Shown here: piece by piece, positions 43,076 to 59,981 of the stretch
How positions within the stretch are numbered: the stretch's first letter is position 1
Layout: the number at the start of each line of letters is the position of its first letter
DNA from: an uncultured Candidatus Actinomarinales bacterium
GTDB lineage: Bacteria; Actinomycetota; Acidimicrobiia; Actinomarinales; Actinomarinaceae
Direction: 5' to 3'
Length of the DNA stretch: 64,000 bases
Assembly: GCA_943840565.1 (NCBI GenBank)
Contig: CALSUY010000001.1
Span: forward strand, 1 to 64,000
The notes under the pieces: generated by a model
What the model saw: the letters and a program-made list of their open reading frames with translations, nothing else
Told to the model about the DNA's origin: nothing
The model's database searches: none
Program-made: the position numbers and the translations under genes

Positions 43076-43550
43076 AATTTTTTACTGGTGGTTCTGGCCT
43101 AGTTGCAAGCCACGTACATAAAGCTATTCCAAAGAATCCAAATATTAAATCTCCAATCATTGAAAATGCAATAAAAATTGTAAAAGCAAAAGTTGGAATG
43201 ATAGTCAAAATTGCAACTTTCTTTGCTCTTCTAGATAGACCTCTGTATTGCTGCCAATTTAATACCATTGGACCAAATAATCTGTGATTTTCTATCCAGT
43301 ATGTAAATTTTGTTGAACATTTTGAAAAAGCCCATGCAGCTATCAAAATAAATACTGTTGTTGGTAATCCTGGTACAACTATGCCTACGTAACCTAAAGA
43401 TAATGACAAAATTCCAATTATAAAAAATACAGGCTTGTGAATTTTTAGAAATAAGTTTGGAAAAAACTTGTAAAGAATAACAAAAAATAATATAAAACCG
43501 CCAACATAAGAAAATGTTTCGTAAGGTATGTTTTTAATTAAATTTTCCAT
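43068..43550 (-). CDS. DUF454 (YbaN-like) membrane protein
   Basis: This 160-residue membrane protein has about four hydrophobic helices. It carries the DUF454 signature: [16 protein letters not shown], followed by [13 protein letters not shown] and [14 protein letters not shown], a conserved cytoplasmic loop. An extra N-terminal helix of about 30 residues precedes the core. Function of the family is unknown. It converges on tdk with an 8-bp overlap. Confidence 0.85.
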
Positions 43551-43585: not shown

Positions 43586-44263
43586 TTAGTTCACGAAAAC
43601 TCTTTCAGCTATATATTGGTCTAAACCAAAAAATTTTTTGTTATCAGTACTTACAGTAATTGAGAATTCATTTGCATCAGCAATAATAATTTTTGAACCT
43701 GGGACTATTTTATTTTCTTGTAAAAAACTAATCATGGAAGCATCTCTTTTTAATTCTTCCGTTATTTTATTAATTGAATAATTTCTGTCCTTTTGTACAT
43801 TTAAAAGATTTGTAGTTTCTAGTTTCTTGTATTTAGAGTAGGGTATAGGATTCCCAAAAAGTCCAGTAGTTGGATTGCCGAGTATAGAAAGCATTGCTTT
43901 TTCAGTAACTGGACTGAGTATATTCTCCCATTTAGAAGTCTCCGCATAAACTTTTTCCCATGGGAGTTTTAATACTTCTGATAGAAATCTTTCAACAATT
44001 CTATGTCTCCTGGCAACAGTTTTGGCTAAATATAAACCCTTATCTGTAAGTTGAAGATCGTCCTCAAATTTTATTAGGCCACTATTTTGCATTCTTCCTG
44101 TAATTTGCGAAACGTTAGCTCTGCTGACGTCAAGCCACTCAGCAACTCTTGTCTGCTTAACTTCAATACCCACTTCATTAAGATGAAAAATTGCAACTGC
44201 TTGTTTATAAAAAGATTCCGGCAGTTTTTCCATTTCTTTTTGAGTGAGCATATGTTTAATCAT
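43586..44263 (-). CDS. DtxR/IdeR-family transcriptional regulator with altered metal sites
   Basis: This 225-residue regulator has an N-terminal winged helix (about 15-80, VAEWLDVSRANVSQITGRM), a dimerisation/metal domain with FGNPIPYSKY, and a C-terminal FeoA-like SH3 domain. Against C. diphtheriae DtxR the ungapped stretch KVYAETSKWEN replaces KVHDEACRWEH, so H98, C102 and H106 become Tyr106, Ser110 and Asn114. M10 aligns with Ser17. H87, E91 and E113 remain. Iron sensing may therefore be changed or lost. It is divergent from a ferric-type ABC importer, its likely target. Confidence 0.88.
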   Translation of the reverse strand: MIKHMLTQKEMEKLPESFYKQAVAIFHLNEVGIEVKQTRVAEWLDVSRANVSQITGRMQNSGLIKFEDDLQLTDKGLYLAKTVARRHRIVERFLSEVLKLPWEKVYAETSKWENILSPVTEKAMLSILGNPTTGLFGNPIPYSKYKKLETTNLLNVQKDRNYSINKITEELKRDASMISFLQENKIVPGSKIIIADANEFSITVSTDNKKFFGLDQYIAERVFVN

Positions 44264-44549: not shown

Positions 44550-44570
44550 ACTTAACATTTAATGTTAAGT
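44550..44570. promoter_or_regulatory. 21-bp perfect palindrome, probable operator of the iron-type importer
   Basis: Arms ACTTAACATT (44550-44559) and AATGTTAAGT (44561-44570) are exact reverse complements around a single T. It lies 40 bp before the lipoprotein ATG and 287 bp from the start of the DtxR-family gene. Size and symmetry fit a DtxR-type operator, although the sequence is not the classical iron box. Confidence 0.7.
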
Positions 44571-44609
44571 ATGGTTAACAATAATAAGCAAATAAAAGGA
44601 ATATATTTT

Positions 44610-45722
44610 ATGAATAAGAAATCAATTTCCCTTCTTGTTGCTTGCTTAATGGTCTTTACTGCATGTGCAGGTGGAGATGCCGGAGAAGCAGGCCCTCAAG
44701 GAGAACAAGGTGAAAAGGGTGAGGCTGGCGAAATAAGCCAAGCTGCTTTGGATGCTGCAGTAGAAGCTGCTTTAGCTGAAGAAGAAGCTGCAGTCGAAGG
44801 ATCTCTAGTTATTTATAGTGGTAGAAAAGAAAGCTTAGTCGCTGACGTCATAGCTGCATTCGCAGCTGAGACTGGAGTAGCAGTTGAAGTTCGTTATGAC
44901 AAGAGTGCTGCGTTAGCAGGTACTTTAGCCCTTGAGGGTGCAATAAGCCCAGCTGACGTTTTCTTATCACAAGATCCAATAAGTCTTGGTGTTGTAGCCA
45001 AGGAAGGACTTTTCGATGTCTTACCAGCTGAGGTATTAGACAACGTTCCAGCATGGGCAGTAGACCAAAGAGGGTACTGGGTTGGAACTTCTGGAAGATC
45101 ACGTTCACTTGTTGTTGACACCAGAGATACAACTGATGCAGAAATGCCTTCAGATATTTATGGTTTAAATGATGAAAAATTTAGAGGAAGACTTGGTCTT
45201 GCACCTGGTAACTCATCTTTCATAGCTATGGTTGCTTGCATGATTGAGTCAGATGGTGAAGAAAAAGTCGCCGAATGGTTAAAAGCCATCAATGGTCTTG
45301 GATATACAGAATATCCAAAGAACTCCCCTCAAGTTGCTGCTGCAGATGCAGGTGAGTTAGACATTGGAATGATTAATCACTACTACACATTAAGAGTATT
45401 AGCTGAAAATGGCGATAGCCCAGTTAAAAATATATATCTTGATGGCGGTTGTGGCGCAATGGTCATGCCAGCTGGAGCAGGAGTTTTATCTTCGAGCCAA
45501 AATAAACCAGCAGCTATAGCATTTATTGAGTATCTACACTCAACAAGCGCACAAGAGCATTTCACAAATACTGTATTTGAGTTCCCACTCGTTCCAGGTA
45601 TTACGCCAAATGCCCTTTTACCAGAAATCGATAGTTTGAACTCTCCTGAGGATTTGAACTGGTCTGCATTAGCTTTATGGCAAGAAAAAGCAGTAGAACT
45701 TATAGCAAAGGCAGGTTTCTAA
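44610..45722 (+). CDS. Ferric-type ABC binding lipoprotein with collagen-like linker
   Basis: This 370-residue FbpA/FutA-type solute-binding protein starts at ATG 44610, preceded by AAAAGGA at about 9 nt; the upstream in-frame ATG 44562 lies inside the palindrome and would displace the signal peptide. The lipobox is FTAC. Directly after it come about seven Gly-x-y triplets (GEAGPQGEQGEKGEAGE), a collagen-like spacer, then an Ala/Glu helix and the binding domain starting SLVIYSGRKE. The paired tyrosines in INHYYTLR match those that bind Fe3+ in FbpA. Iron as substrate is inferred from these and the linked regulator. Confidence 0.9.
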   Translation: MNKKSISLLVACLMVFTACAGGDAGEAGPQGEQGEKGEAGEISQAALDAAVEAALAEEEAAVEGSLVIYSGRKESLVADVIAAFAAETGVAVEVRYDKSAALAGTLALEGAISPADVFLSQDPISLGVVAKEGLFDVLPAEVLDNVPAWAVDQRGYWVGTSGRSRSLVVDTRDTTDAEMPSDIYGLNDEKFRGRLGLAPGNSSFIAMVACMIESDGEEKVAEWLKAINGLGYTEYPKNSPQVAAADAGELDIGMINHYYTLRVLAENGDSPVKNIYLDGGCGAMVMPAGAGVLSSSQNKPAAIAFIEYLHSTSAQEHFTNTVFEFPLVPGITPNALLPEIDSLNSPEDLNWSALALWQEKAVELIAKAGF

Positions 45723-45750
45723 CAGTCATTAGATACTAATGCTATATACA

Positions 45751-45795
45751 AAAGAAAAAAATCTGGTCACATCAACCTGGCCAGATTTTTTCTTT
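45751..45795 (+). terminator. Rho-independent terminator after the binding lipoprotein
   Basis: AAAGAAAAAAATCTGG (45751-45766) pairs with CCAGATTTTTTCTTT (45781-45795) around a loop of about 14 nt, ending in a T-rich tract. It separates the binding protein from the permease gene, which has its own promoter-like sequence. Confidence 0.82.
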
Positions 45796-45815
45796 ATATA
45801 ACTCATTAACATAGA

Positions 45816-45821
45816 TATTCT
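45816..45821 (+). promoter_or_regulatory. -10-like TATTCT before the ferric permease (leaderless)
   Basis: TATTCT ends 6 nt before GTG 45828, the same spacing as at tdk and nuoA of the second operon. No Shine-Dalgarno is visible. TAGATA at 45812 is an alternative hexamer. Confidence 0.4.
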
Positions 45822-45827
45822 TATATT

Positions 45828-47384
45828 GTGAAAACTCCAAAAGCACTCATAATCACCAACTTCATTATTCTTATTACCTTCTTGCTCCCTACATTTTATT
45901 TAATCTGGAGATTTCTAACTTTTACTAAATCTTATGTAAGTTTTTTTAGATCTTGGAATGTCTTTGACTTACTTTTAAATACAATTCTTTTATTTATTTT
46001 TGTTGTTATTTCAAGTTTAATTTTAGGTCTATTGATATCAATAATCCTTGTTCGCTTTAATATACCTGGTTCCAAAATCTTATTTACCCTATCTGTGCTT
46101 CCTTTGGTTATCCCTTCTTACATTGGAGCATTAACTTATGTTTCAGCTTTCTCTCCTAAAGGTCTATTCGTACAATTATTTTCCAGTCTTGGAATAAATG
46201 AAATAGCTGGAATTGATGGCTTTTTTGGTAGTTGGTTAGTTTTGACATTATTTACATATCCTTACGTCCTATTAATTTGTAGTAGCGCACTTCGAAATCT
46301 CGATTCTACTGTTGAAGATGCTGCACGATCATTAGGTAAAAACAGATTTAATGTTTACACACAAGTTGTAATACCAAGATTAAAAAAACCAATTATCTTC
46401 TCTGGTCTCCTGGTTGGCTTGTATGTGATATCAGATTTCGGTGCAGTTTCATTGATGAGATATTCAACTCTTACAAAGGCTATTTATAGTTATTATGAAT
46501 TTAATATAAACGGCGATCCAGTTATTTTTTACTCAAGTATCTTAATAGTTTTGGCACTGCTAATAAGTTTTATACAAAGAGGATCGGAAGAGGCAAGATC
46601 AGCGAAAGTCAGTGGAACTCCAAAAATATCTGAAAAAACTAATCTAAGTCCAAGGTCTAAAGTACTAATTTATACCTTTCTGAGTTTAGTTATTTTTTCA
46701 GGACTCATTTTGCCGATATCAGTTTTAAGCTATTGGCTCATTAGGGGACTCTCAGCTGGGAATAGTGTTAGAGCTGTATTTGGAGGAGTTGTAGGATCTC
46801 TAAGTGTATCTCTATTGGCAGCACTTTTTTCTGTGATTGTTTCGACACCTATTATTATTATGGTTTCACAATATCGTTCAAAATTTGGAAACGTTTTAGA
46901 GAGAATCATGCTTGCACTTTATGGCTTACCTCATATATCTGTCGGGGTTGCCATCTTATTTATTACAATTAAAATCTTCCCGTCTATATATCAAAGTTTT
47001 ACAGCTTTAATTATCTCCTACCTAATAGTCTTTCTTCCTCAAGCGATTGGAGCAGGCCAGGCGTCCATGGAGCAGGTAAAATCTAATTACTTAGATGCAA
47101 GTTCTGGATTAGGCATGTCAAAGTTAAAAAGTTTTTACAGAATTACTCTTCCATTAATATATAGAGGCTTGTTTGCAGGTGGAGCACTCGTTTTCTTATC
47201 AACGATGAAAGAATTACCACAAACATTACTACTTAGGCCTACAGGTCTAAATACTATGGCTATTGATATTTGGTCATATGCATCTGAAGGATTATTCACT
47301 CAAGCAGCATTTTCTTCATTTATTTTGTTGGCAATAAGTGCAATTCCTACTTATATATTAAGTACAAGGAATTTAACAACATAA
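45828..47384 (+). CDS. Ferric-type ABC permease (FbpB-like, two fused halves)
   Basis: This 518-residue permease has about twelve hydrophobic spans in two homologous halves, as in FbpB/SfuB. Both halves show the EAA-type coupling motif: EDAARSLGKNRFNVYTQVVIPRL near residue 165 (shown by families in part) and LDASSGLGMSKLKSFYRITLPL near residue 425. GTG start at 45828. It shares one base with the ATPase start (TAATG). It works with the upstream binding lipoprotein. Confidence 0.9.
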   Translation: MKTPKALIITNFIILITFLLPTFYLIWRFLTFTKSYVSFFRSWNVFDLLLNTILLFIFVVISSLILGLLISIILVRFNIPGSKILFTLSVLPLVIPSYIGALTYVSAFSPKGLFVQLFSSLGINEIAGIDGFFGSWLVLTLFTYPYVLLICSSALRNLDSTVEDAARSLGKNRFNVYTQVVIPRLKKPIIFSGLLVGLYVISDFGAVSLMRYSTLTKAIYSYYEFNINGDPVIFYSSILIVLALLISFIQRGSEEARSAKVSGTPKISEKTNLSPRSKVLIYTFLSLVIFSGLILPISVLSYWLIRGLSAGNSVRAVFGGVVGSLSVSLLAALFSVIVSTPIIIMVSQYRSKFGNVLERIMLALYGLPHISVGVAILFITIKIFPSIYQSFTALIISYLIVFLPQAIGAGQASMEQVKSNYLDASSGLGMSKLKSFYRITLPLIYRGLFAGGALVFLSTMKELPQTLLLRPTGLNTMAIDIWSYASEGLFTQAAFSSFILLAISAIPTYILSTRNLTT

Positions 47385-48409
47385 TGGTATTTGACAGTCT
47401 TATTTTGAGAGCTAGAAGCCTATCTAAGTCATATGGGGCTGAATCTGTTCTTTCCAATTTCAATATTGATATATGGGAGGGTTCAATTTTCGGAATACTA
47501 GGGACCTCTGGATCAGGAAAAACTACAGCTTTAAGAATGCTTGCGGGGTTTGAATTACCAGATTCAGGAAGCATCGAAATGTATAACAAAGTAATTTTTG
47601 ATCACGAAACAAACACACCGCCTGAAAACAGAAACATAGGAATGGTTTTTCAAGATTATGCATTATTTCCCCACCTAAACGTTGAAAAAAATATAGCTTT
47701 TGGCCTTAGTAAAGAAGAGCAAAATAGTGGGCGATTGCAAGAAGTAATAGATATGTGTAATTTGACACAATATAAAAATAAATTTCCTCAAAAACTTTCA
47801 GGAGGTCAACAACAAAGAGTGGCTTTAGCTAGAGCACTTGCCCCAAAACCAGAAATGATTCTCCTTGACGAACCTTTTACAAGTTTAGATGCCCAAATGG
47901 CGAGAGTCCTTAGAGATGAGGTTGTGTCTCTTTTAAGAGAGACTCAGACTACTGCAATAATTGTTACACATGATCAAGAGGAAGCCTTGTCGGTATGCGA
48001 TATTGTTAGTGTTTTGGAAAATGGAAATGTTATACAAAGTGCAACTCCTCAAGAGATTTACTTGAATCCAATCAGTCAATCTGTAGCAAATTCAGTTGGG
48101 GATCCAAATATTCTTAAGGGATTTTCAGTAGATGGAAGAGTAGAAACATCCCTTGGAAGTTTCACCTCAGCATATGAGGGTGCTCTAGATGTATCAATAC
48201 GTCCGGAGTGTATCGAAATCAATTTAGACTCTATGGGACCTTATACGGTTAAAGAGTGCACTTTTTACGGACATGATCAAGTTATCTCTTTTCAGAACAA
48301 CAAAGGTGAGATATTCCGATCAAGATCTCTCCCGTCTGTTATATATGAACCAGGGGATAAGATTTGTATTGAAGTTTCGGAAGTAACTACTTTTCCTTCA
48401 AATAAGTAG
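47384..48409 (+). CDS. Ferric-type ABC ATPase (FbpC-like)
   Basis: This 341-residue ATPase of the FbpC/PotA class has Walker A GTSGSGKTT, Q-loop MVFQDYALFPHL, signature LSGGQQQRVALARALAP, Walker B ILLDEPFTSLD and a switch His in VTHDQEEALS. The C-terminal TOBE-like domain (about 240-341) contains VSIRPECIEI. It is coupled to the permease by a TAATG overlap and overlaps the convergent small gene by 12 bp. Confidence 0.92.
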   Translation: MVFDSLILRARSLSKSYGAESVLSNFNIDIWEGSIFGILGTSGSGKTTALRMLAGFELPDSGSIEMYNKVIFDHETNTPPENRNIGMVFQDYALFPHLNVEKNIAFGLSKEEQNSGRLQEVIDMCNLTQYKNKFPQKLSGGQQQRVALARALAPKPEMILLDEPFTSLDAQMARVLRDEVVSLLRETQTTAIIVTHDQEEALSVCDIVSVLENGNVIQSATPQEIYLNPISQSVANSVGDPNILKGFSVDGRVETSLGSFTSAYEGALDVSIRPECIEINLDSMGPYTVKECTFYGHDQVISFQNNKGEIFRSRSLPSVIYEPGDKICIEVSEVTTFPSNK

Positions 48410-48592
48410 TTTAATCTTAGATACTTTTCCTGCGATTGCTTGAAGTGCTATTTCAGTCTCAGAAAGATAGTTTGTAGCTCTTTTAAAATTATCCTCTGCA
48501 ATAAGCTCTCTTGAATTTGCTAGTGACTTAACTAAAGTGTTTAATTCACGAATTAAGTTATCTAACTCATTATTAATTTCATTAATATCCAT
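48398..48592 (-). CDS. 64-residue helical (coiled-coil) hypothetical protein
   Basis: This short protein is predicted all-helical with heptad-like spacing (INNELDNLIRELNTLVKSL) and no membrane segment or Cys. Its stop overlaps the ABC ATPase stop by 12 bp in convergent orientation, and it is divergent from the heliorhodopsin gene by 48 bp. No Shine-Dalgarno is visible. It resembles small exonuclease-VII-subunit-like coiled coils only superficially. Confidence 0.5.
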   Translation of the reverse strand: MDINEINNELDNLIRELNTLVKSLANSRELIAEDNFKRATNYLSETEIALQAIAGKVSKIKLLI

Positions 48593-48640: not shown

Positions 48641-49444
48641 ATGGAAGTAAAAATTCAGAAGCTTAAGAAATTTAATTTAAGAATGGGATTAGTACACCTT
48701 ATCCAAGGAGCAGGTTTATTTTATTTGGGAACCGTAGTAAATACAGGTTTCACAGTACCCTTAACAATTACTCAACTTATTGGAGTTGGAACTCCTGAAG
48801 ATCCATCAAGCTTCGCTTTAGTTCCCGAACTACAAATCTGGAGAGAGGTATCAAACTTCGGACCTGCAGTTGCAACATTTTTGTTGGCATCAGCACTCGC
48901 ACATTTTCTTATATCGGGCCCTTTCTATAACAGGTATAAAGCAGATTTAATGAAAGGTATTAATAAAGTCCGCTGGATCGAGTACTCAATTAGTGCTTCA
49001 GTAATGATTGTGTTGATAGCTTTACTTGTAGGAATTTATGATGTTTGGGCACTAGCTGGAATTTTTGTCATGAATGCTGCGATGTGTTGGTTTGGTTGGA
49101 TGATGGAAGTACACAATCAATATACTGAAAAAGTTGATTGGACTGCTTATATCATGGGTTGTTTAGCTGGTATTGCACCGTGGATTTTTATTTTTATCAA
49201 TTTAATAGGTGATGGAGTTGCTACAGATGCAAATCCTCAAGGGGTTCCCCAATTCGTAGTCTGGATATTTGTTAGTATATTTTTCTTTTTTAACACTTTT
49301 TCAATAAATATGATTCTTCAATATAAAGGTGTAGGAAAGTGGAAAGACTATTTATACGGTGAAAGAGCCTATATATGGTTGAGTCTACTTGCTAAAACTT
49401 GTCTAGCATGGCAAGTATTTGCTGGAACATATCAGCCAAACTAA
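48641..49444 (+). CDS. Heliorhodopsin
   Basis: This 267-residue protein has seven transmembrane helices and strong similarity to the described heliorhodopsin 48C12. The retinal lysine is K252 in SLLAKTCLAWQVF, and the counterion is E114 in RWIEYSISASVMIVLIA (E107 in 48C12). H19 and H88 match the two conserved internal histidines, and the loop before helix 7 reads GKWKDYLYGERAYIWLSL. Heliorhodopsins have inverted topology and a light-sensing or enzyme-modulating rather than established pumping role. No retinal-synthesis gene lies in the window. Neighbours are a small coiled-coil gene and a DUF4349 lipoprotein, both on the other strand. Confidence 0.96.
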   Translation: MEVKIQKLKKFNLRMGLVHLIQGAGLFYLGTVVNTGFTVPLTITQLIGVGTPEDPSSFALVPELQIWREVSNFGPAVATFLLASALAHFLISGPFYNRYKADLMKGINKVRWIEYSISASVMIVLIALLVGIYDVWALAGIFVMNAAMCWFGWMMEVHNQYTEKVDWTAYIMGCLAGIAPWIFIFINLIGDGVATDANPQGVPQFVVWIFVSIFFFFNTFSINMILQYKGVGKWKDYLYGERAYIWLSLLAKTCLAWQVFAGTYQPN

Positions 49445-49451
49445 TTGAGGA

Positions 49452-49523
49452 TTATTTAATCTTTCTTCCAAAGAAGATTACTAAAAGGATTATTAAGAAA
49501 AGCCCAATGTAGGAAAAGGCCAT
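49452..49523 (-). CDS. 23-residue membrane peptide coupled to the DUF4349 lipoprotein
   Basis: ATG 49523 shares one base with the stop of the DUF4349 gene (TAATG), the junction used by real gene pairs in this window. It encodes one hydrophobic helix, AFSYIGLFLIILLVIFFG, with a basic end (RKIK). It resembles the C-terminal helix and basic tail of the upstream protein (FPIFLIFLLIKKLKKRE). It may be a small partner protein. Evidence is positional; no homologue recognised. Confidence 0.5.
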   Translation of the reverse strand: MAFSYIGLFLIILLVIFFGRKIK

Positions 49524-50308
49524 TATTCTCTTTTTTTCAGTTTCTTAATTAATAAGAATATTAAGAAAATTGGGAAAGCGATTATCCCGATTGAAAAAGT
49601 AATTCCAACGATGCTCTCAATCCAATTAAGGCTTCTCTCAAAATAATAATTCCAGGAAAATAATGAAATTCCAGAACCTTCCCTGATGTTTAATGTGAGT
49701 TTTGAGTATGAAACAGCATTTGTGTAATATTCTTTTTGACCCTTAAGCATCTCAATATCCTGATTGATATAACGAAGTTGATTTTGAACCTCTAAGCGGT
49801 CAGATGTTGTTTTCGCTTCAAGTTTGATCTCCTCAAGTGCTTCCTTTTCATTCACCAATGAAGATAACCTTGAGTCAATATCTAAAACATAAGTTGTAAC
49901 ATCGTTTGCATTGATGCTGATATCTGAAAAGTCTTTAATATTTTCAACGTCGAGTATAAATTGATCAAAATCTGCGGCAGGTATGTTTGATGTGATACTA
50001 AAACTCTTTAATCCTTGGTAATTAGTAGATAAATATGAGTCAGAAATATTGCCATTGTATTGAGTTACAAGATTTTTGAATTCATCCACTTTCTTCTCAA
50101 AATTAGACGTACTAACATCCATGCTTCCATAGGCAGATTTGATTATGTACTCTCCTGGAGATAGTGAACTACTTTCTATTGAGTCAGATGCCATTCTATA
50201 TGGCTCAATAGATGGCTCAATGCCTATCTCAGCAAAACCCTCTTCTGTTATGTTTGTCTGGCATGCACTAAGGATTACTAATATAAATAAAGTTTTTAAA
50301 AATTTCAT
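49523..50308 (-). CDS. DUF4349-domain lipoprotein
   Basis: This 261-residue protein has a lipoprotein signal (ILSAC, Cys16), an exported DUF4349 domain (about 55-215) and a C-terminal transmembrane helix (about 232-255) with a basic tail KKLKKRE. Typical family features are the SYLSTNYQG strand, the repeated NIPAADFDQFILDV helix and a central coiled-coil hairpin rich in Glu/Lys (LSSLVNEKEALEEIKLEA). Anchored at both ends, it may span the cell wall. Function of the family is unknown. Confidence 0.85.
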   Translation of the reverse strand: MKFLKTLFILVILSACQTNITEEGFAEIGIEPSIEPYRMASDSIESSSLSPGEYIIKSAYGSMDVSTSNFEKKVDEFKNLVTQYNGNISDSYLSTNYQGLKSFSITSNIPAADFDQFILDVENIKDFSDISINANDVTTYVLDIDSRLSSLVNEKEALEEIKLEAKTTSDRLEVQNQLRYINQDIEMLKGQKEYYTNAVSYSKLTLNIREGSGISLFSWNYYFERSLNWIESIVGITFSIGIIAFPIFLIFLLIKKLKKRE

Positions 50309-50324
50309 TTATACAGTCTAACCA

Positions 50325-51419
50325 TTAAAAGTTAATAATTTCTATAACAGGTACCCGCATTTCTTCTTCTGTAATTCCTCCATGGTATCCAACCAAGTTG
50401 GCCTTTAAATGTTTTGGAAAAATAATGTATCCATCATCTACAAGGAAACAGTGGTCAGGGTAAAGCCTTTTGTTTAGATTATTTGTAGGTTCTCCAATTA
50501 AGTGTCTTATTTCTACACTGTTAAGAAAACGTCCAGGGACATTCTTAAATATTTTTTTAACTTTCGTTTCGTCACCATTGATATAAACACTTCTCTGATC
50601 TCCGTAGACAACAACATCCTCCTCATAATCTAGATGAATCCGATTCTCATTAGAGATGTTTGTGAGACCGTGATCTGCCGTTATCAAGGTGTACATTTTT
50701 TTGGATTGAGTACTGTTTAAATTCTTTATAAACATTTCAAAAATACCAACTTCTTCATGCCACTGATCACTACCTACTCCAAAAACATGGGCTGAGATAT
50801 CAATATTCGGATAGTAAATAAAATTAAAGCGATTATCCAATACTGAAGAGTCACTAACTATTTCATTTAATTCTTCTGTGTCTTTATATGCAATCTGATG
50901 GGAGTCTTTATAGATGTATTCAGACAATGCACTATCTACTAAGTCGCGAGGTTGTAGGTTATTGGAGGTAATACCTTTATTTCTTAAAAGAGTCCATATG
51001 GTTTGTCGGTCTTTAATATCTGGATGTTTTAATAAAGATTTGTTTTCTTTGTTCCAGTTTAAGGCATTAATAAGTCCGTGCTCTTCTCTATCAAAGAGAT
51101 AATAACCTAAAATTGATGTCTCCACAGGCTTAGATACATAGTTAATAGTGCTTAAAGCAACATTAGTTGAGCTAGGAAAAGTTGAATTTACAGAAAAAGA
51201 ATTTGAATCCTTTAAATAATCAGACTTAGCTAGTTTTAAGTTTTCACTTCCAAGACCATCGGCTAAAACAAAATTTATGGTTTCTGCTTGAAGAATTTTA
51301 GAATCAAGATTTATTTCATGTTCTTCATGAAAGTCAACTGTCTTTGTAACTACATTAAATAGTTTTTTTGATAGGTCGAGTAAGCTACTTTTTCCTAAAA
51401 TATTTTCAAGATTGCTCAT
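50325..51419 (-). CDS. Alkaline-phosphatase-superfamily phosphodiesterase/nucleotide pyrophosphatase-like protein
   Basis: This 364-residue cytoplasmic-looking enzyme has metal ligand D54 in VLADGLG and a candidate nucleophile Ser/Thr in FPSSTNVAL (about 81-89). Later metal motifs are DISAHVFG, TADHG and GYHGG. The order matches type I phosphodiesterase/nucleotide pyrophosphatase members of the AlkP superfamily. No signal peptide. It ends 16 bp from the DUF4349 start on the same strand and is divergent from the second nuoA across 76 bp. Substrate unknown. Confidence 0.82.
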   Translation of the reverse strand: MSNLENILGKSSLLDLSKKLFNVVTKTVDFHEEHEINLDSKILQAETINFVLADGLGSENLKLAKSDYLKDSNSFSVNSTFPSSTNVALSTINYVSKPVETSILGYYLFDREEHGLINALNWNKENKSLLKHPDIKDRQTIWTLLRNKGITSNNLQPRDLVDSALSEYIYKDSHQIAYKDTEELNEIVSDSSVLDNRFNFIYYPNIDISAHVFGVGSDQWHEEVGIFEMFIKNLNSTQSKKMYTLITADHGLTNISNENRIHLDYEEDVVVYGDQRSVYINGDETKVKKIFKNVPGRFLNSVEIRHLIGEPTNNLNKRLYPDHCFLVDDGYIIFPKHLKANLVGYHGGITEEEMRVPVIEIINF

Positions 51420-51495: not shown

Positions 51496-51861
51496 ATGAA
51501 TTCTTATTTTCAGGAGTACGCAACAGTAGCAGTATTGTTAGCAGTGGGCATTATATTTATGCTCATTTTGACATCTATTGCAGCTATCCTCAGGCCGAAT
51601 AATCCCTCTCCTGAAAAACTTACAACCTACGAGTCAGGTGTTGACCCCGTCGGGACAGGTTGGAGTCAGACTTACATTCGATACTATATTTTTGGCCTAT
51701 TGTTCGTAATTTTTGATGTTGAAGCAGTATTCATATTCCCATGGGCAATTAATCTTGAGAAGTTAGGTTATTTTGGTTTAGTGGAAATGCTAGTTTTTAT
51801 TTTTATTTTGTTAATCGGATTAATTTATGCAATTAGAAAGGATGTATTGAAATGGGAGTAG
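51496..51861 (+). CDS. nuoA: Complex I subunit A, second operon
   Basis: This 121-residue, three-helix subunit has the loop [13 protein letters not shown], in which the usual Cys of YECG is Ser. That change is known in several NuoA lineages and distinguishes this copy from the first. It opens an 11-gene operon with very tight spacing and overlaps nuoB by 10 bp. Confidence 0.95.
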
Positions 51862-52349
51862 TTGATAAATTCGGATTACCAAAACCGATATCGTCAGTTT
51901 TAAACTGGGCTAGGTCATACTCTTTGTGGTATTTCCAATTTGGATTAGCTTGCTGTGCAATAGAAGTTATGGCAGTAAGTGGACCCAGACATGATTTTAT
52001 GAGACTTGGAATTATCCCACTACCTGCATCACCAAGACAAGCTGATTTAATGGTTGTCGCTGGAACAGTCACAGACAAAATGGCACCAGCAGTAAAAAGA
52101 CTATATGATCAAATGCCAGAGCCAAAATATGTCATATCTATGGGTTCCTGTTCAAATAGCGGTGGTCCATATTGGGATTCATACTCTGTTACAAAAGGTG
52201 TGGATCAACTTATCCCTGTTGACGTATACGTTCCAGGATGTCCTCCAAGACCTGAAGCTTTACAAGAGGGAATTATTCTCCTACAAGAAAAAATAAGAGG
52301 AGAAGACATGAAAGAAAAATGGAAAGCAGATCAAAATGAACCTGTCTAG
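51852..52349 (+). CDS. nuoB: Complex I subunit B, second operon
   Basis: This 165-residue N2-cluster subunit has ligands C34, C35 (GLACCAIE), C100 (MGSCSNSGG) and C130 (VPGCPPRPE). It lies in a distinct branch from the first copy, with the insert [11 protein letters not shown]. Overlaps nuoA by 10 bp and nuoC by 14 bp. Confidence 0.96.
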
Positions 52350-52887
52350 CAATGCAGAGTTTATTGAGTCAATATCTACAAAATTTTCTAGTGTAGAAAA
52401 TGAATTTGATACCCTAAAAATAAAAGTAAAACCAGAAGAATGGGTAGAAACAGCAAAAATTCTTAAAGAAGAATTTCAACTTACTTACTTTTCATGGCTA
52501 AGCGCCATTGATTGGGAAAATGAAGTTTCAGTAGGAGACCCCCCGAAAGAATCAGTATCACCACATTTTGAAATAGTTTTTTGCTTGTCAGAGTCAATTG
52601 AAGGAAATGTTGTTTTAGTATCTACTGAAATAGAAAAAGAAGATGCAATGATTCCATCCTTAATTGAGGTTTTTGCAGGTTCTAATTGGCACGAACGAGA
52701 AGCATACGAAATGTTTGGTATCGAGTTCAATAATCATCCAAACCTCACAAAAATGTATCTTCCAGATGACTACGAGGGAAATCCAATGCTCAAATCATTT
52801 GAGTTGATCAGTAGAGAAGTTAAGCCATGGCCTGGTGAAGTAGATGTCGAAGGTATGCCAGAAAACGGTTCAAAGGAAGATAATTAA
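52336..52887 (+). CDS. nuoC: Complex I subunit C, second operon
   Basis: This 183-residue, full-length NuoC, longer than the first copy, has the signature [17 protein letters not shown] and the tail [16 protein letters not shown]. The N-terminal beta/alpha domain is intact. One base separates its stop from the nuoD start. Confidence 0.94.
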
Positions 52888-52888
52888 A

Positions 52889-54085
52889 ATGGATGATATT
52901 TTAAATACAGGAAATGTTCCTTATGTTTCAGAAGCTTCGGTCTCAGTTGAAATAGAAACTGAAGACATGACTCTAAACATTGGCCCACAACATCCCTCAA
53001 CACATGGTGTATTAAGACTGGTTGCCAAAGTAGATGGAGAAAAAATTTCAAGTGTCGAGCCTGTTCTAGGTTATATGCACAGAGGCTATGAAAAATTAGC
53101 TGAGGTCAGAACATATCCCCAAATTACAACACTTGTTAATAGAATTGATTGGGTATCAGGTTTTGCTAATGAGATACCTTTCATTGCTGCAACTGAAAAG
53201 CTAATGGAGATAGAAGCACCTGAAAGAGCAAAGCACATCAGGTTGATTCTCACAGAGATGGCAAGAATTGCTTCTCATTTTGTATTCAATGGAGCTTATG
53301 CATTAGAGATCGGGGCGTTAACTCCTATATTTTTAGCAATGGAGGATAGAGAAAGAATACTTGATTTAATAGAATCAGTAACAGGTGGTAGGTTTCATCC
53401 AAATTTTAATAGAATAGGTGGAGTAAAACCAGCAGCAGGTTCGGGCCCCACAACCAAAAAAAATGTACAAGATCTACCAGCAGGTTTCTATCAAGAAACT
53501 AGAGACGCAATGGAGAAGGTTCTAGAAGCTGTTGAGAGAATGGAAGATTTAGTTGGTGGCAACGAAGTCTTTAAGGCTAGGACTAAAGGAGTTGGGATAA
53601 TATCCAAAGAACTTGCTGAAGAATATGGAGTCTCTGGACCGATATTGAGAGCATCTGGAGTAAAGTTTGATTTAAGGACTCAAACCGATTTCTTACCGTA
53701 TGACAAATTTGAATACGAGATTCCTGTTGGAGAAAATGGAGATTGTTATGATCGTTGGTATGTTCGACTACTAGAGATGAGAGAGTCAGCTAAAATTATA
53801 CTTCAAGCTATTGACTCCATGCCAAGTGGACCCCTACAGACAAAAGTTCCAAAGGTTATAAAAGTACCTAAGGGACGATCTTATGTAAGGACAGAAAATC
53901 CAAAAGGTGAAATGGGATACTATGTAATTTCTGAGGGTGGTCTAGGTCCATACCGACTAAAAATTAGAACACCGTCCTTTAGTAATATTTCCATCCTCCC
54001 AGTACTGCTTGAAGGTCAATTGTTACCTGATCTGATTGCAATCATGGGCAGTCTAGATTTTGTTTTAGGGGATGTTGATAGATGA
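52889..54085 (+). CDS. nuoD: Complex I subunit D, second operon, with the MidA target arginine
   Basis: This 398-residue quinone-site subunit starts at ATG 52889, preceded by GGAAG; the frame is open from 52844, but that would overlap nuoC. The core begins LNIGPQHPSTHG and ends VLGDVDR. The sequence YMHRGYEKL places Arg65 (codon 53081-53083) exactly at human NDUFS2 Arg118 (Arg85 mature), the residue dimethylated by NDUFAF7. It also has GDCYDRW, as in mitochondrial proteins. No hydrogenase CxxC pairs. Confidence 0.95.
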   Translation: MDDILNTGNVPYVSEASVSVEIETEDMTLNIGPQHPSTHGVLRLVAKVDGEKISSVEPVLGYMHRGYEKLAEVRTYPQITTLVNRIDWVSGFANEIPFIAATEKLMEIEAPERAKHIRLILTEMARIASHFVFNGAYALEIGALTPIFLAMEDRERILDLIESVTGGRFHPNFNRIGGVKPAAGSGPTTKKNVQDLPAGFYQETRDAMEKVLEAVERMEDLVGGNEVFKARTKGVGIISKELAEEYGVSGPILRASGVKFDLRTQTDFLPYDKFEYEIPVGENGDCYDRWYVRLLEMRESAKIILQAIDSMPSGPLQTKVPKVIKVPKGRSYVRTENPKGEMGYYVISEGGLGPYRLKIRTPSFSNISILPVLLEGQLLPDLIAIMGSLDFVLGDVDR

Positions 54086-55062
54086 TTGATGGATCTCAGA
54101 TATTAGTAACTGCAGGTATCGTTTTAGCTTTTGCACTAAACGGAGCAGTAATATTTACAATTCTCGATGTTAAAGGAGCATCATGGATGCAAAGAAGACC
54201 GGGCCCCCTTCATGTTGGATTAAGAGGATTCATTTTTCCACTAGCTGAAATAATTAAATTTTTCCAAAAAGAAGACATCACACCGACTAATGTTGACGCT
54301 CCTGTCTTTAAATGGGCACCAGCTTATGTACTTGCATCAGTCTTCGGTTTATTCGTTGTTGTACCAATTAGCCCAACTTTAGTTGGGAGTGATTTAGATT
54401 TAGGAGTCTTCTATTTGCTAGCGATAAGTTCGCTATCAACACTAGGGGTTCTTACTGCAGGTTGGTCCTCAGCAAACAAGTACTCTTTAATGGGTGGAAT
54501 ACGTGCTGCAGGACAGTTAATTGCATATGAACTTCCATTAATTCTTGCAGTAGTTGGAGTTGTCATCCAGGCAGAAACCATGTCACTTGTTGGGATAGTT
54601 GAGAAACAAATAGAATTTGGACTTCCATTTGCACTTTCTGGCCAAGGTCTTGCCTTCCTAATTTTTATGATAGCTGCAACAGCTGAAATGATGAGAGTAC
54701 CATTCGATATGCCAATTGGTGAGTCCGAACTTGTTAGTGGATTTTTAACAGAATATTCTGGCGTAAGATTTTTAATATTTTATATTGCTGAATACATGAA
54801 CATGTTTGTATTATGTGCAGTTGCTTCCACATTATTTCTAGGTGGATATCATGTCCCACTTCTCCCACCTGAATGGGTCAACTTTTATGGACCAGTTGTC
54901 TTAATTACTAAAACAGTTTTGCTGGGCTTCATATTAGTTTTAGTGAGATGGTCATTTCCTAGATTCAGAGAAGATCAGCTACAAAACTTAGCATGGAAGG
55001 TTTTAATTCCGCTTTCTTTACTCAACATATTGATAACATCCATAATGAAAGTTGTATTTTAA
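54082..55062 (+). CDS. nuoH: Complex I subunit H, second operon
   Basis: This 326-residue, eight-helix subunit at the quinone entrance has WMQRRPGPLHVGLRG near residue 35 and the acidic quinone-channel segment RVPFDMPIGESELVSGF near residue 210. It overlaps nuoD by 4 bp and directly abuts nuoI. Confidence 0.95.
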   Translation: MIDGSQILVTAGIVLAFALNGAVIFTILDVKGASWMQRRPGPLHVGLRGFIFPLAEIIKFFQKEDITPTNVDAPVFKWAPAYVLASVFGLFVVVPISPTLVGSDLDLGVFYLLAISSLSTLGVLTAGWSSANKYSLMGGIRAAGQLIAYELPLILAVVGVVIQAETMSLVGIVEKQIEFGLPFALSGQGLAFLIFMIAATAEMMRVPFDMPIGESELVSGFLTEYSGVRFLIFYIAEYMNMFVLCAVASTLFLGGYHVPLLPPEWVNFYGPVVLITKTVLLGFILVLVRWSFPRFREDQLQNLAWKVLIPLSLLNILITSIMKVVF

Positions 55063-55548
55063 ATGAAAAAATTTAGACCTAAATTACCTGGCTTTTTGAC
55101 TGGAATGAAAATTCTTTTATTTAATATGTTCAAGACATTATCTCCACTAAGTCCAAATCCAAATGTTAATTACCCATTTGAAAAAGAAATTGTTGCACCC
55201 AGAGCAAGGGGAGTCATAGCACTTGATACAGATGCTTGCACTAGCTGCATGCTTTGTGCGAGACAATGCCCAGATTGGTGTATTTACATAGAAGGACATA
55301 AAGAATTACAACCCCCTGCAAAACCTGGTGGTAGGGAACGCAGTAGAGCAGTTCTTGACAGGTTCGATATTGACTATGCTCTCTGCATGTATTGCGGAAT
55401 TTGTGTTGAGGTATGTCCTTTTGATGCATTGTTTTGGACACCAGAGTACGAATATTCAGAATACAATATGGGGGATATGCTTCATGATAAAAATAGACTC
55501 GATCAATGGCTAAACACAGTTCCTGAAGTGGAAGGTTTAGAGAGTTAA
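55063..55548 (+). CDS. nuoI: Complex I subunit I, second operon
   Basis: This 161-residue ferredoxin-like subunit carries two [4Fe-4S] clusters: C59, C62, C65, C69 (CTSCMLCARQC) and C108, C111, C114, C118 (CMYCGICVEVC). Without NuoEFG this is the most exposed Fe-S subunit, and a likely entry point for electrons from ferredoxin. Starts immediately after nuoH. Confidence 0.95.
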   Translation: MKKFRPKLPGFLTGMKILLFNMFKTLSPLSPNPNVNYPFEKEIVAPRARGVIALDTDACTSCMLCARQCPDWCIYIEGHKELQPPAKPGGRERSRAVLDRFDIDYALCMYCGICVEVCPFDALFWTPEYEYSEYNMGDMLHDKNRLDQWLNTVPEVEGLES

Positions 55549-55549
55549 A

Positions 55550-56068
55550 ATGGAAGCACTGGACATCATCAGTTATTTTTTACTTTTAGGACTTTTATTA
55601 GTTTCTGTAAAAGTTGTCACAACTTCAAACGTTATTCATGCAGCAATATCTTTAGTTTTCACATTAGCTATAACAGCTGCAACTTTTTTACTACTGTCCG
55701 CGGAATTTGTTGCACTGGTGATAGTTCTTGTATACATAGGTGCTGTAATAGTTCTTTTCTTATTTGGAATAATGATCACTAGAGCGCCATTAGGTCAAAA
55801 TGCGGAACTAGATAATGATAAGAACAAAAGTTTAGCATTAGTTGTCTCTCTATCAATTTTTGTAATTTTTTCATATGTGATGTTTAACACATTCGATTCG
55901 CAAATTATTGTTACAACCGGAACCTCAACAGAATTACTGGGTGAGATTTTATTAAGCAGGTTTGTATTTCCTTTTGAAGTAGTCTCTTTCGTTTTACTAG
56001 CCGCTTTAATTGGTGGAATCACCTTGGCAAGGCAAGATAATGCCTTAGTTGACGAGAATCAAATATGA
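55550..56068 (+). CDS. nuoJ: Complex I subunit J, second operon
   Basis: This 172-residue, five-helix subunit has the conserved helix LVYIGAVIVLFLFGIMI near residue 62. One base separates it from nuoI, and it overlaps nuoK by 4 bp. Confidence 0.93.
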   Translation: MEALDIISYFLLLGLLLVSVKVVTTSNVIHAAISLVFTLAITAATFLLLSAEFVALVIVLVYIGAVIVLFLFGIMITRAPLGQNAELDNDKNKSLALVVSLSIFVIFSYVMFNTFDSQIIVTTGTSTELLGEILLSRFVFPFEVVSFVLLAALIGGITLARQDNALVDENQI

Positions 56069-56370
56069 GTGCTCAGCCTTTTTTAATTGCAGCAGCAGGA
56101 TTATTTTCAATTGGGATTTATGGAATTTTAGTTAGAAGGAATGTTGTTATGGTGTTGTTGTCTATCGAGTTAATCCTCAATGCTGTGAATATAAACTTTG
56201 TAGTCTTCAATGCAATGTTAGGAGATGCATTATTACAGGGTCAAATTTTTACTATTTTCATTATCACCATAGCCGCTGCTGAAGTAGGGATTGGTTTGGC
56301 GATTGTTTTAATGTTGTTTAGAAATAGAAAAACTGCAAATATTGATGAATTTGATTTGTTGAAATGGTAA
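56065..56370 (+). CDS. nuoK: Complex I subunit K, second operon
   Basis: This 101-residue, three-helix subunit has conserved glutamates in SIELILNAVNINF and AAAEVGIGLAIVLML. Overlaps nuoJ by 4 bp and nuoL by 7 bp. Confidence 0.94.
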   Translation: MSAQPFLIAAAGLFSIGIYGILVRRNVVMVLLSIELILNAVNINFVVFNAMLGDALLQGQIFTIFIITIAAAEVGIGLAIVLMLFRNRKTANIDEFDLLKW

Positions 56371-58382
56371 ATAGTAATTTAATCACCTTTCTAGCTGAAG
56401 GAAAAGTTACATACACTGATGGTGGAACTTTCGCTGAGTACACTTGGTTGATTGTTGTTCTCCCATTTATAGCTGCTCTTCTAATTACTTTCTTTGGAAA
56501 ATATCTACCACTTAAGGGTGCTGAAATTGCGCTTGCTACGATAGGTTTCATCTTTGCTTTCAGTTCATACCTACTCTATTTAAATGTGACAGAAGGAGTA
56601 GCTTCAGAATTTTTTATCAATGTGGGAAGCATTGGTTCATTTGATCTTGAATTTGGTTGGGTGGTAGACGGTCTTTCTATAATGATGTATTTTGTTGTAG
56701 GGACAGTGGCTAGTTTAGTTTTCATTTACGCCACAAATTATATGCAGGGAGAAGTCAGATATACTTTTTTCTTCACCTCTCTAACTTTGTTTGCTGGAAG
56801 TATGTTAGTTTTGGTTTCCTCACCAACATTATTACAACTTTTAATTGGTTGGGAGCTAGTAGGTGTTTGCTCCTATTTGTTAATTGGTCATTATTGGGAA
56901 AAGAAAGAAAACTCATCTGCTGCTATGAAGGCTTTTATAACCAACAAAATTGCAGATGTTGGATTAATGATTGGAATAATTGTGCTGGCGCTTTCTACAG
57001 GTACGATGAGAATAAGTGAAATTTTATATCAATCAACTCATGATTATGAGTCACTTAAATCAGTTGCCTATCTGGCTGGAGTTTTACTATTTATAGGGGC
57101 TATGGGTAAAAGTGCTCAGTTCCCGCTTCATGTCTGGCTACCTGATGCAATGGCAGGTCCAACACCAGTCTCAGCACTAATGCACGCAGCAACAATGGTC
57201 ACAGCAGGTGTTTATTTACTAGCAAGAATGTTTCCTTTTTATGAAGGTATGGCAAGCGAAGCATTGGACGTGGTCTTGCTGTTTGGAGTTATAACCCTTT
57301 TTGCAGCTGGAATGATAGCCATAGTTCAAGATGATCTCAAAAAAGTTCTCGCATATTCAACTGTCAGTCAGCTTGGTTATATGGTGGCTGCTATTGGATC
57401 TGGAGCCTATACAGCTGCATTATTTCACCTTTGGACACATGCTTTTTTTAAAGCCCTACTGTTTCTTGGTGCAGGATCAGTAATTCATGCCGTACATACA
57501 AACAGCATGAAAGAAATGGGTGGGCTCAAAAAAGAGATGCCCAGAACATATACAACATTTATTCTGGGAACAATTGCTCTTACAGGACTGCCCCCTCTTG
57601 CTGGCTTTTTCTCAAAAGACGAGATACTCGCCTCTTTAAATCACGGAGGATATAACACCTATTTTGCTATTGCTGTAGCAGGTGCTTTTATCACTGCTTT
57701 TTATATGACTAGAGCCGTGGTTCTGACATTCTTTGGGGAATATAGAGGTAATGGTCATCCACACGAGTCAGACTCTATGATGACGACACCTCTTATTGTA
57801 CTTGCAGGCTTCGCAGTAACTGCTGGGTGGGTAAACATTCCAGGAATATATACGGGCTTTACTGATTGGGTGACCACAAGGAAAAACCCTATAGTCGAGT
57901 ATCATCCTGAATCTTTTGACTACTTTGCATTAACAAGTGGCTTACTCGCCGGGCTAGCTGGTATTGGACTTGCTTACTATGTCTATCAAATTTTAGGTAG
58001 ACCAGAAGATGGAGATGAAAAGATTAAAGTTGAGCCAATATGGAATCTTCTTGAAAATAAATATTACTTAGATGATTTTTATTTCAAATACATCATAAAT
58101 CCAACTAAATCCACACTTGCAAATACTGTTGATAGATTTAACACAAATATTCTAGACAAAGCTGTGAATCTATTTGGAGTTGCTGCTATATTCCTTGGAA
58201 ATATCGTGTACAACAAATTTGACCAAGGGGGGATAGATAAAGCATTAAACATATCATCTTCATCTACTGACGCATTGGGTGCAAGAGTAAAACTTCTTCA
58301 GACTGGAAAAGCTCAACAGTATATTATGTATTTTTTAAGCGGAGTAATAGTAATTAGCTTATTAATTTTGTTAGTGTTATAG
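56364..58382 (+). CDS. nuoL: Complex I subunit L, second operon
   Basis: This 672-residue antiporter-like pump subunit is about 40 residues longer than the first copy, mainly in the C-terminal region around the lateral helix. Core motifs are GWELVGVCSYLLIGHYW, KSAQFPLHVWLPDAMAGPTP and HAFFKALLFLGAGSVIH. It ends 8 bp before the nuoM start. Confidence 0.94.
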   Translation: MVNSNLITFLAEGKVTYTDGGTFAEYTWLIVVLPFIAALLITFFGKYLPLKGAEIALATIGFIFAFSSYLLYLNVTEGVASEFFINVGSIGSFDLEFGWVVDGLSIMMYFVVGTVASLVFIYATNYMQGEVRYTFFFTSLTLFAGSMLVLVSSPTLLQLLIGWELVGVCSYLLIGHYWEKKENSSAAMKAFITNKIADVGLMIGIIVLALSTGTMRISEILYQSTHDYESLKSVAYLAGVLLFIGAMGKSAQFPLHVWLPDAMAGPTPVSALMHAATMVTAGVYLLARMFPFYEGMASEALDVVLLFGVITLFAAGMIAIVQDDLKKVLAYSTVSQLGYMVAAIGSGAYTAALFHLWTHAFFKALLFLGAGSVIHAVHTNSMKEMGGLKKEMPRTYTTFILGTIALTGLPPLAGFFSKDEILASLNHGGYNTYFAIAVAGAFITAFYMTRAVVLTFFGEYRGNGHPHESDSMMTTPLIVLAGFAVTAGWVNIPGIYTGFTDWVTTRKNPIVEYHPESFDYFALTSGLLAGLAGIGLAYYVYQILGRPEDGDEKIKVEPIWNLLENKYYLDDFYFKYIINPTKSTLANTVDRFNTNILDKAVNLFGVAAIFLGNIVYNKFDQGGIDKALNISSSSTDALGARVKLLQTGKAQQYIMYFLSGVIVISLLILLVL

Positions 58383-58390
58383 GAGGAAAA

Positions 58391-59980
58391 GTGGAAATAG
58401 TAACTAATAATTTTGAATTTTTAGAGAATGGACTGGGTATAACTTTGGTTGTATTCCTCCCTCTATTAAGTGCTTTAGTCGTTGCACTATTGCCAAAAAA
58501 ACAAGAGTTATTGATAAAGTTAACAGCACTTGGTTCTTCACTAATCACTTTCATATTAAGCGTAATTGTTGCTATTCAGTTTGATTACTCCAAAGCAGAA
58601 CAGTTTCAGTTGGGAAATAAACTTTCTTGGATAGAGGCAATAAATTCTAATTATGAAATTGGTATTGATGGCATATCCCTACCCATGCTGCTTCTTTCAA
58701 CCTTTATTACAGTATTAGCAATAATTTATTCCTTCGAGCATTTACCTGAGCCAAAAAGTCCAAAGGGAATGATGGCGCTTATTTTAATCTTAGAAACTGG
58801 AATGAATGGTACTTTCGTAGCTTTAGATTTAATACTCTTCTTTGTATTCTTTGAACTTGTCCTACTACCTATGTATTTCATGATTGGAATTTGGGGAGAT
58901 AAAACAATGAGGAGTGTTGCTGGTCTTAAAAATGAGGTTGAGACTCGCTTATATGCAAGTATTAAGTTTTTTGTTTTTACACTTTTCGGTTCTGCTTTTA
59001 TGCTGCTTGGATTTTTAGGACTTTATTTCAGAGGAGCCAAAACTTTCAGTATTCCTGAGTTAATAGAATTAGGAACAAGTGGGGCATTTACTGGAACTTT
59101 TGCAACACTCGTTTTTGCAGTTCTATTTCTGGGCTTCGCAGTTAAGGTTCCAATGTGGCCTCTCCATACTTGGCTTCCAGATGCTCATACGGCAGCACCA
59201 ACAGTTGGATCAGTATTACTTGCCGCAATACTTCTAAAATTAGGTTCCTATGGATTTGTAAGAATTGCTTTACCAATTTTACCTGAGCAAGCACAAGCTT
59301 GGGCACCAGCGATTGCAATACTGTCAGCTATTGGAATAATTTATGGTTCGTTAGCATGTCTAGCACAAACTGACCTCAAAAGGCTAATAGCTTTTTCATC
59401 AGTGGGTCACATGGGTTTTGTAATGCTAGGAATCTCCTCTTTGACATCTATTGGTATTAATGCTGCAATAATTGGCATGGTTGCACACGGTGTAATTACG
59501 GGTTTACTTTTCTTCTTATCTGGATCGATGGCTCACACTTATCACACCAGAGATATGGGAAGACTTGGTGGAAATATGAAACTTTTGCCCAAAACTGGTG
59601 GATTACTGGCATTTACAGCAATGGCCTCACTTGGACTACCTGGACTAGCAGGCTTCTGGGGAGAATTTATGGCTCTATTAGGAGCATACAATCCATTACC
59701 AGGACTAAATATCACAATATTCAGAACATCCATGGTTGCTGGGGCAATAGGTACAGTTCTGACTGCTGGCTATTTACTCTGGATGCTTCAAAGAGTTAAT
59801 TTAGGAGAGCCAAATGACGAATGGAAAGATAAAAAACTCCATGATGCGGATGCATACGAATTAGCAGCTTGGATACCCCTCGTTATTTTAACAATCTTAA
59901 TTGGAGTATTTCCTAAGTTAATTTTCGGATCTACAAATGATGCTGTAATCAGTTTGGTTACTAAAGCATTCGGAGGCTAA
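58391..59980 (+). CDS. nuoM: Complex I subunit M, second operon
   Basis: This 529-residue antiporter-like pump subunit has FFELVLLPMYFMIGIWGD near residue 155, VKVPMWPLHTWLPDAHTAAP near residue 253 and AFSSVGHMGFVMLG. The GTG start has a perfect AGGAGG site (58381-58386). Its last codons contain GGAGG, which appears to serve as the ribosome site for nuoN. Confidence 0.94.
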   Translation: MEIVTNNFEFLENGLGITLVVFLPLLSALVVALLPKKQELLIKLTALGSSLITFILSVIVAIQFDYSKAEQFQLGNKLSWIEAINSNYEIGIDGISLPMLLLSTFITVLAIIYSFEHLPEPKSPKGMMALILILETGMNGTFVALDLILFFVFFELVLLPMYFMIGIWGDKTMRSVAGLKNEVETRLYASIKFFVFTLFGSAFMLLGFLGLYFRGAKTFSIPELIELGTSGAFTGTFATLVFAVLFLGFAVKVPMWPLHTWLPDAHTAAPTVGSVLLAAILLKLGSYGFVRIALPILPEQAQAWAPAIAILSAIGIIYGSLACLAQTDLKRLIAFSSVGHMGFVMLGISSLTSIGINAAIIGMVAHGVITGLLFFLSGSMAHTYHTRDMGRLGGNMKLLPKTGGLLAFTAMASLGLPGLAGFWGEFMALLGAYNPLPGLNITIFRTSMVAGAIGTVLTAGYLLWMLQRVNLGEPNDEWKDKKLHDADAYELAAWIPLVILTILIGVFPKLIFGSTNDAVISLVTKAFGG

Positions 59981-59981
59981 T

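Follow-up and report, generated by a model that had tools for sequence, protein, structure and literature searches.

Heliorhodopsins are non-pumping, retinal-binding membrane photoreceptors with an inverted topology, in which the N-terminus lies inside, and with a long, slow photocycle. They occur widely, and what they do is under debate. What does such a protein do in Candidatus Actinomarina, and do the genes that surround it there point to a partner? The window considered here, meaning the whole stretch of 64,000 nucleotides, belongs to an Actinomarina genome of 640,326 bases in 4 contigs that is 70.57% complete. The locus offers a clean, testable case, with a streamlined ocean bacterium, strong selection on the heliorhodopsin and no pigment-synthesis genes found among the families searched.

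The Heliorhodopsin Gene

The gene at 48641..49444 (+) encodes a protein of 267 amino acids that a first-pass annotation, made from the sequence letters, had identified as a heliorhodopsin. Family models and structural alignments confirm the assignment. The protein passes both family cut-offs at full length, those of PF18761 (294.8 bits, cut-off 26.7; 5.5e-88, profile positions 1-241 of 242) and NF038020 (HeR; 312.8 bits, cut-off 100; 1.5e-93). Its best match among solved structures is TaHeR (6is6; 7.8e-67, 228.7 bits), a heliorhodopsin of archaeal origin, and it scores higher there than against the actinobacterial 48C12 (6su3; 3.6e-58, 200.3 bits). Both alignments run almost end to end. The retinal lysine K252, the counterion E114 and the two inner histidines H19 and H88 are present. 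The same annotation had correctly listed these four as in place, and they are invariant in 68/68 aligned heliorhodopsins.

The best matches to the protein come from Candidatus Actinomarina/OCS155 assemblies, one locus (L031) at 100% identity and 35 loci (L032-L066) at 80-96%. The assembly that holds L066 is labelled Proteobacteria. These heliorhodopsin matches supplied the Actinomarina loci compared below; locus counts for DUF4349 and mp23 (n=36) include the window and leave out L066, which is truncated, and the locus count for CC64 (n=37) includes L066. Purifying selection on the Actinomarina heliorhodopsin is very strong (pN/pS 0.077 across 36 distinct sequences), and the gene is carried by 30/35 genus genomes and by 11/24 other genomes of the class. 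Judged by its sequence, it is a conserved heliorhodopsin of Candidatus Actinomarina.

Retinal Supply

The first-pass annotation saw no retinal biosynthesis gene in the window and proposed a search of the genome for carotenoid and retinal-cleavage genes. Four families were searched, in genomes that are incomplete. Among 20 genus genomes there was no match to SQS_PSY phytoene synthase (PF00494; 7/14 control genomes positive), to CarR lycopene cyclase (TIGR03462; 3/14 controls positive), to RPE65-type carotenoid oxygenase (PF03055; 2/14 controls positive) or to Blh (PF15461), which also matched 0/14 controls and hence has no positive control. The window's own genome, at 70.6% completeness, likewise holds none of the four, in agreement with what the annotation had seen. 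A self-sufficient retinal photosystem, with genes for both the synthesis and the cleavage of beta-carotene, was thus not found with these four families in the 20 genus genomes.

Excerpts of López-Pérez et al. (PMC7771536) also describe Actinomarinales without retinal synthesis genes, and they report that a same-group relative pumps protons. Of 20 genus genomes, 16 carry a type 1 rhodopsin (PF01036), with none in the window's own incomplete genome. The missing synthesis genes are consistent with uptake of retinal from outside, and we know of no transporter for retinal. The heliorhodopsin had been expected to be photoactive. With its retinal site intact this is plausible, but it would hold only with retinal from outside, since the search of the genus turned up no gene for its synthesis.

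Gene Order Around the Heliorhodopsin

The neighbours that had been named for the gene (the ORF at 48398-48592, a DUF4349 protein, a coupled ORF of 23 codons and an ABC importer) are all present. The importer (44562..48409, +) consists of a binding protein, a fused permease and an ATPase; its genes end 231 nt upstream of the heliorhodopsin on the same strand, with the small gene CC64 between them on the opposite strand. Its earlier description as iron-type did not find support in a family model, since no NCBIfam cut-off was reached, but the adjacent gene for a DtxR-family metal-dependent repressor (43586..44263, -; PF02742, 1.2e-18) and excerpts of PMC7771536 favor iron, and the substrate is probably ferric iron. 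On the other side, the microprotein gene mp23 is followed by the DUF4349 protein gene (49523..50308, -; PF14257, 7.9e-32), whose product has an N-terminus that looks lipobox-like by eye, and by a gene for a type I phosphodiesterase/nucleotide pyrophosphatase family protein (50325..51419, -; PF01663, 3.1e-10). Beyond these lies a second nuo-type cluster (51496..61463, +), its ORFs named by eye and from excerpts of PMC7771536. According to the same excerpts, the second nuo cluster is of the F420H2 type, has no EFG and is similar to the F420-linked complex found in Methanosarcina mazei.

In loci that are long enough, the recurring order is DtxR, importer, CC64, heliorhodopsin, mp23, (DUF4349), phosphodiesterase and nuoABCD. 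Some loci depart from it: L065 lacks a scored match for DtxR, the nuo genes are inverted in L056, and short contigs cut some loci. The phosphodiesterase gene is found in every untruncated locus. The DUF4349 gene is present in 23/36 loci and absent from 13 (L038, L050-L060 and L063), and the distance from the heliorhodopsin start to the nearer end of the phosphodiesterase gene is 1,672-1,704 nt with DUF4349 and 869-901 nt without. Placed by eye on the heliorhodopsin tree, DUF4349 is missing at at least three places, with the gene order otherwise fixed.

Several genes farther upstream deserve mention. A thymidine kinase gene (42473-43075, +; PF00265, 3.1e-45) is interspersed with the genes for iron and respiration and shows high conservation across the loci of the genus. 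A DUF454 protein gene (43068-43550, -; PF04304, 2.6e-31) adjoins that of the DtxR-family repressor, and both are kept in most loci that are long enough. An ABC transporter at 39448-40980 (+) is split over several frames, with ATPase pieces at 39448-39630 and 39778-40014 followed by broken membrane-protein pieces, and represents either base errors in the assembly or a decaying gene.

Much of this context had been presented as fresh, and most of it was published in 2020. Excerpts of López-Pérez et al. place the heliorhodopsin of Actinomarinales between two nuo clusters and beside an Fe3+ importer; the gene, the site, the importer, the iron-dependent repressor and the missing retinal synthesis are the same as here (PMC7771536). 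The identification of the heliorhodopsin, its nuo and iron-importer context and the missing pathway are therefore already known. What seems unreported is that CC64 and mp23 flank the heliorhodopsin on the opposite strand. Neither was found mentioned in the excerpts of PMC7771536, and no title or abstract opening in the heliorhodopsin papers searched, which took in all those since 2024, names either.

Two Small Proteins

CC64 (48398..48592, -) is a predicted helical hairpin of 64 amino acids, encoded head-to-head with the heliorhodopsin. In the window 48 nt separate the two start codons, and among the 23 loci listed the spacing is 44-69 nt; at its other end, the CC64 gene shares 12 nt with the gene for the ABC ATPase. 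A divergent control region common to CC64 and the heliorhodopsin is possible. A promoter and terminator scan returned fewer promoter-like sites than in shuffles and no terminator-like site. The ORF is intact in 37/37 Actinomarina loci, its pN/pS is 0.47 (minimum among column permutations, 0.72), and a profile search detects it in 36/42 genus genomes and in 0/254 other genomes of the class. AlphaFold2 models it as a helical hairpin (mean pLDDT 95.9) with helices at 3-32 and 36-63. Foldseek against the PDB found nothing at E <= 0.001, and what matched weakly is mostly helical hairpins and bundles; no Pfam family scored above cut-off in a search at E <= 10, and no relatives were found in viral contigs.

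mp23 (49452..49523, -) is a microprotein of 23 amino acids with a single transmembrane (TM) helix, MAFSYIGLFLIILLVIFFGRKIK. Its gene stands tail-to-tail with the heliorhodopsin, with 7 nt between the stops in the window, and its start overlaps the DUF4349 stop (TAATG). In 36/36 untruncated loci it is intact, exactly 23 codons long and ends 0-7 nt past the heliorhodopsin stop, and in some a later in-frame start also exists. M1, S4, Y5, G7 and K23 are invariant in 15 aligned rows, and L032 has T4. A profile search finds mp23 at E <= 1.3e-9 in 30/35 genus genomes, with only partial matches, at E 0.0025 or worse, outside the genus. The basic C-terminus and the positive-inside rule would place that end inside the cell.

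The idea that mp23 is a chance ORF was rejected. The pN/pS ratio of mp23 (pS 0.67, pN 0.20, ratio 0.295) lies below the minimum of 60 column permutations (0.55), and its constant ends are unlike those of spurious ORFs; for eight other ORFs of 18-70 codons within the heliorhodopsin gene, the ends are conserved in 1, 5, 7, 23, 1, 7, 3 and 1 of 35 loci. Both small proteins, mp23 and CC64, are real, specific to this lineage and under purifying selection. Recurrence together with such selection shows the small genes to be real; it does not follow that they serve the heliorhodopsin, and a link to it is possible only.

mp23 matches no Pfam family above cut-off. In TatA, a conserved FG hinge leads into an amphipathic helix, and a motif of the form FG-R/K-K, seen by eye, made mp23 a candidate. 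The candidate was rejected: only 4 residues follow FG, FG is missing in L050-L060, and there is no TatA Pfam match at E <= 10. A kinship with PsbL, the single Pfam family listed for mp23, was likewise set aside, the match (E 0.012) being below cut-off and found with one of three sequences only. KdpF and CydX are small single-TM subunits that mp23 resembles in being very short, in its one TM helix and in its conserved length. Nor is mp23 an appendage of DUF4349 only: it is retained in the 13/36 loci without DUF4349, directly after the phosphodiesterase gene, and in L050, L053, L055 and L058, for example, it starts about 2 nt past the apparent phosphodiesterase stop, as judged by eye. The mp23 gene thus closes an operon of the form phosphodiesterase-(DUF4349)-mp23. 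For this reason its partner is to be sought first within the operon, with the heliorhodopsin as second choice.

Neighbors Outside the Genus

The first-pass annotation had proposed, to good effect, a search for recurrent neighbours among relatives, the coiled-coil ORF (CC64) above all, and held that their absence would remove the argument from context but leave the identification intact. Within Actinomarina both small genes recur throughout (CC64 in 37/37 loci, mp23 in 36/36). Beyond the genus they do not. With Blast, 17 neighbour proteins were compared with 55 heliorhodopsin loci from elsewhere, some only 3-6 kb long, and at E <= 1e-4 none of CC64, mp23, DtxR, binding protein, permease, DUF4349, phosphodiesterase or nuo was found near the heliorhodopsin. 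A short-query search with mp23 in these loci gave weak partial matches only, the best two within ORFs of 557 amino acids. The importer ATPase has generic ABC-ATPase matches in 14/55 loci, and these are all that remains of a heliorhodopsin context common to other lineages. The argument from context thus fails beyond the genus (0/55 loci; CC64 in 0/254 genomes) and stands within it, where recurrence alone is no proof of a functional link because the genus is highly syntenic.

Possible Functions

A close known parallel is OcHeR, for which excerpts of PMC11109279 describe how light modulates an ABC exporter next to it. Because of that precedent, a photoreceptor that modulates another protein is by analogy the likeliest kind of function for the Actinomarina protein. 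The full reading that we prefer, to which we give about an even chance, is of a photoreceptor with an intact retinal site that scavenges its retinal and modulates a partner from a fixed locus, the small proteins being real and mp23 belonging to the phosphodiesterase operon. The cell would load the heliorhodopsin with retinal scavenged from the photic zone, which the type 1 rhodopsin would use as well. Light would then drive the slow photocycle and change the shape of the protein, and the shape change would modulate a bound partner membrane protein, as with OcHeR and its ABC exporter. Candidates for that partner are the importer next to the heliorhodopsin, the F420H2-type complex I, and mp23 and CC64.

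As in the OcHeR/OmrDE system, a heliorhodopsin gene lies near an ABC transporter gene; in that system the transporter is a drug exporter, which a survey grouped with the heliorhodopsin by a shared operon, whereas in Actinomarina it is an importer with a divergent gene in between (excerpts of PMC11109279). The importer and the heliorhodopsin share a strand but do not form one operon of that type, CC64 standing between them on the opposite strand. A further objection to partner modulation is that the near genes, except for generic ABC ATPases, do not recur at heliorhodopsin loci elsewhere. mp23 and CC64 are concrete partner candidates that context surveys could miss, since Bulzu et al. counted only same-strand genes as operon candidates (excerpts of PMC8612252).

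A serious contender, which we place somewhat short of an even chance, is that the neighbourhood is frozen gene order in a streamlined genome, with heliorhodopsin, importer, nuo and small genes functionally unrelated. It would account for an order kept across the genus loci that takes in the clearly unrelated thymidine kinase, and for the lack of any specific neighbour that recurs outside the genus. The order is not wholly frozen, however, as DUF4349 has come and gone within the genus.

We consider it unlikely that mp23, CC64 or both are dedicated subunits or regulators of the heliorhodopsin, forming a lineage-specific light-signalling module in which mp23 would pack against it as an extra helix and CC64 would supply a soluble relay. 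Both genes flank the heliorhodopsin directly wherever a locus reaches them, the spacing is tight (44-69 nt head-to-head in the 23 loci listed and 0-7 nt tail-to-tail), and mp23 outlasts the loss of DUF4349. The presence of mp23 also equals that of the heliorhodopsin in 35/35 genus genomes, but this match is uninformative, as the negative genomes are without the whole region. Six genus genomes have no CC64 (G002, G014, G016, G027, G030 and G149), and the five of them scored for heliorhodopsin are all negative. Because a phosphodiesterase match and a full permease match are absent from all six as well, the region is most likely missing from the assemblies rather than the gene lost, and co-occurrence was discarded as evidence for a link. 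Against dedicated subunits also stand the high synteny of the genus and the gathering of loci through the heliorhodopsin itself, the opposite strand of both genes, the place of mp23 in the phosphodiesterase operon and the lack of mp23 or CC64 relatives near heliorhodopsins outside the genus. The stronger form of the idea, in which a light-signalling complex specific to the lineage would be built around the heliorhodopsin, with mp23 as single-helix membrane subunit, CC64 as soluble helical-hairpin relay and scavenged retinal, is quite improbable. If true, it would be, to our knowledge, the first heliorhodopsin with small dedicated subunits.

That the protein works here without retinal, whether as a scaffold in its apoprotein form or in a role that needs no light, would fit the absence of the four retinal-synthesis families from 20 genus genomes, but it is very improbable given the invariant K252, E114, H19 and H88, the type 1 rhodopsin that the genus keeps and the proton pumping reported for a same-group relative (excerpts of PMC7771536).

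Origin of the Gene

A tree of 68 heliorhodopsins unites the 13 Actinomarina rows in a single clade (100/100). A strongly supported branch (100/99) divides this clade from 11 heliorhodopsins that belong to other genomes of the class, which is probably Acidimicrobiia, and the clade falls on the same side as a mixed set drawn from archaea, Chloroflexota and candidate phyla. Horizontal acquisition of the Actinomarina heliorhodopsin is a fair suggestion from this topology, and a suggestion only, because resemblance to the query governed the choice of the mixed set, the rooting is arbitrary and a number of long branches come together. Excerpts of PMC7771536 call the tree position of the Actinomarinales heliorhodopsin equidistant. 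No relatives of the heliorhodopsin were found in phage records. Two viral contigs (L182 and L183) encode heliorhodopsins that are 47-48% identical to that of Actinomarina.
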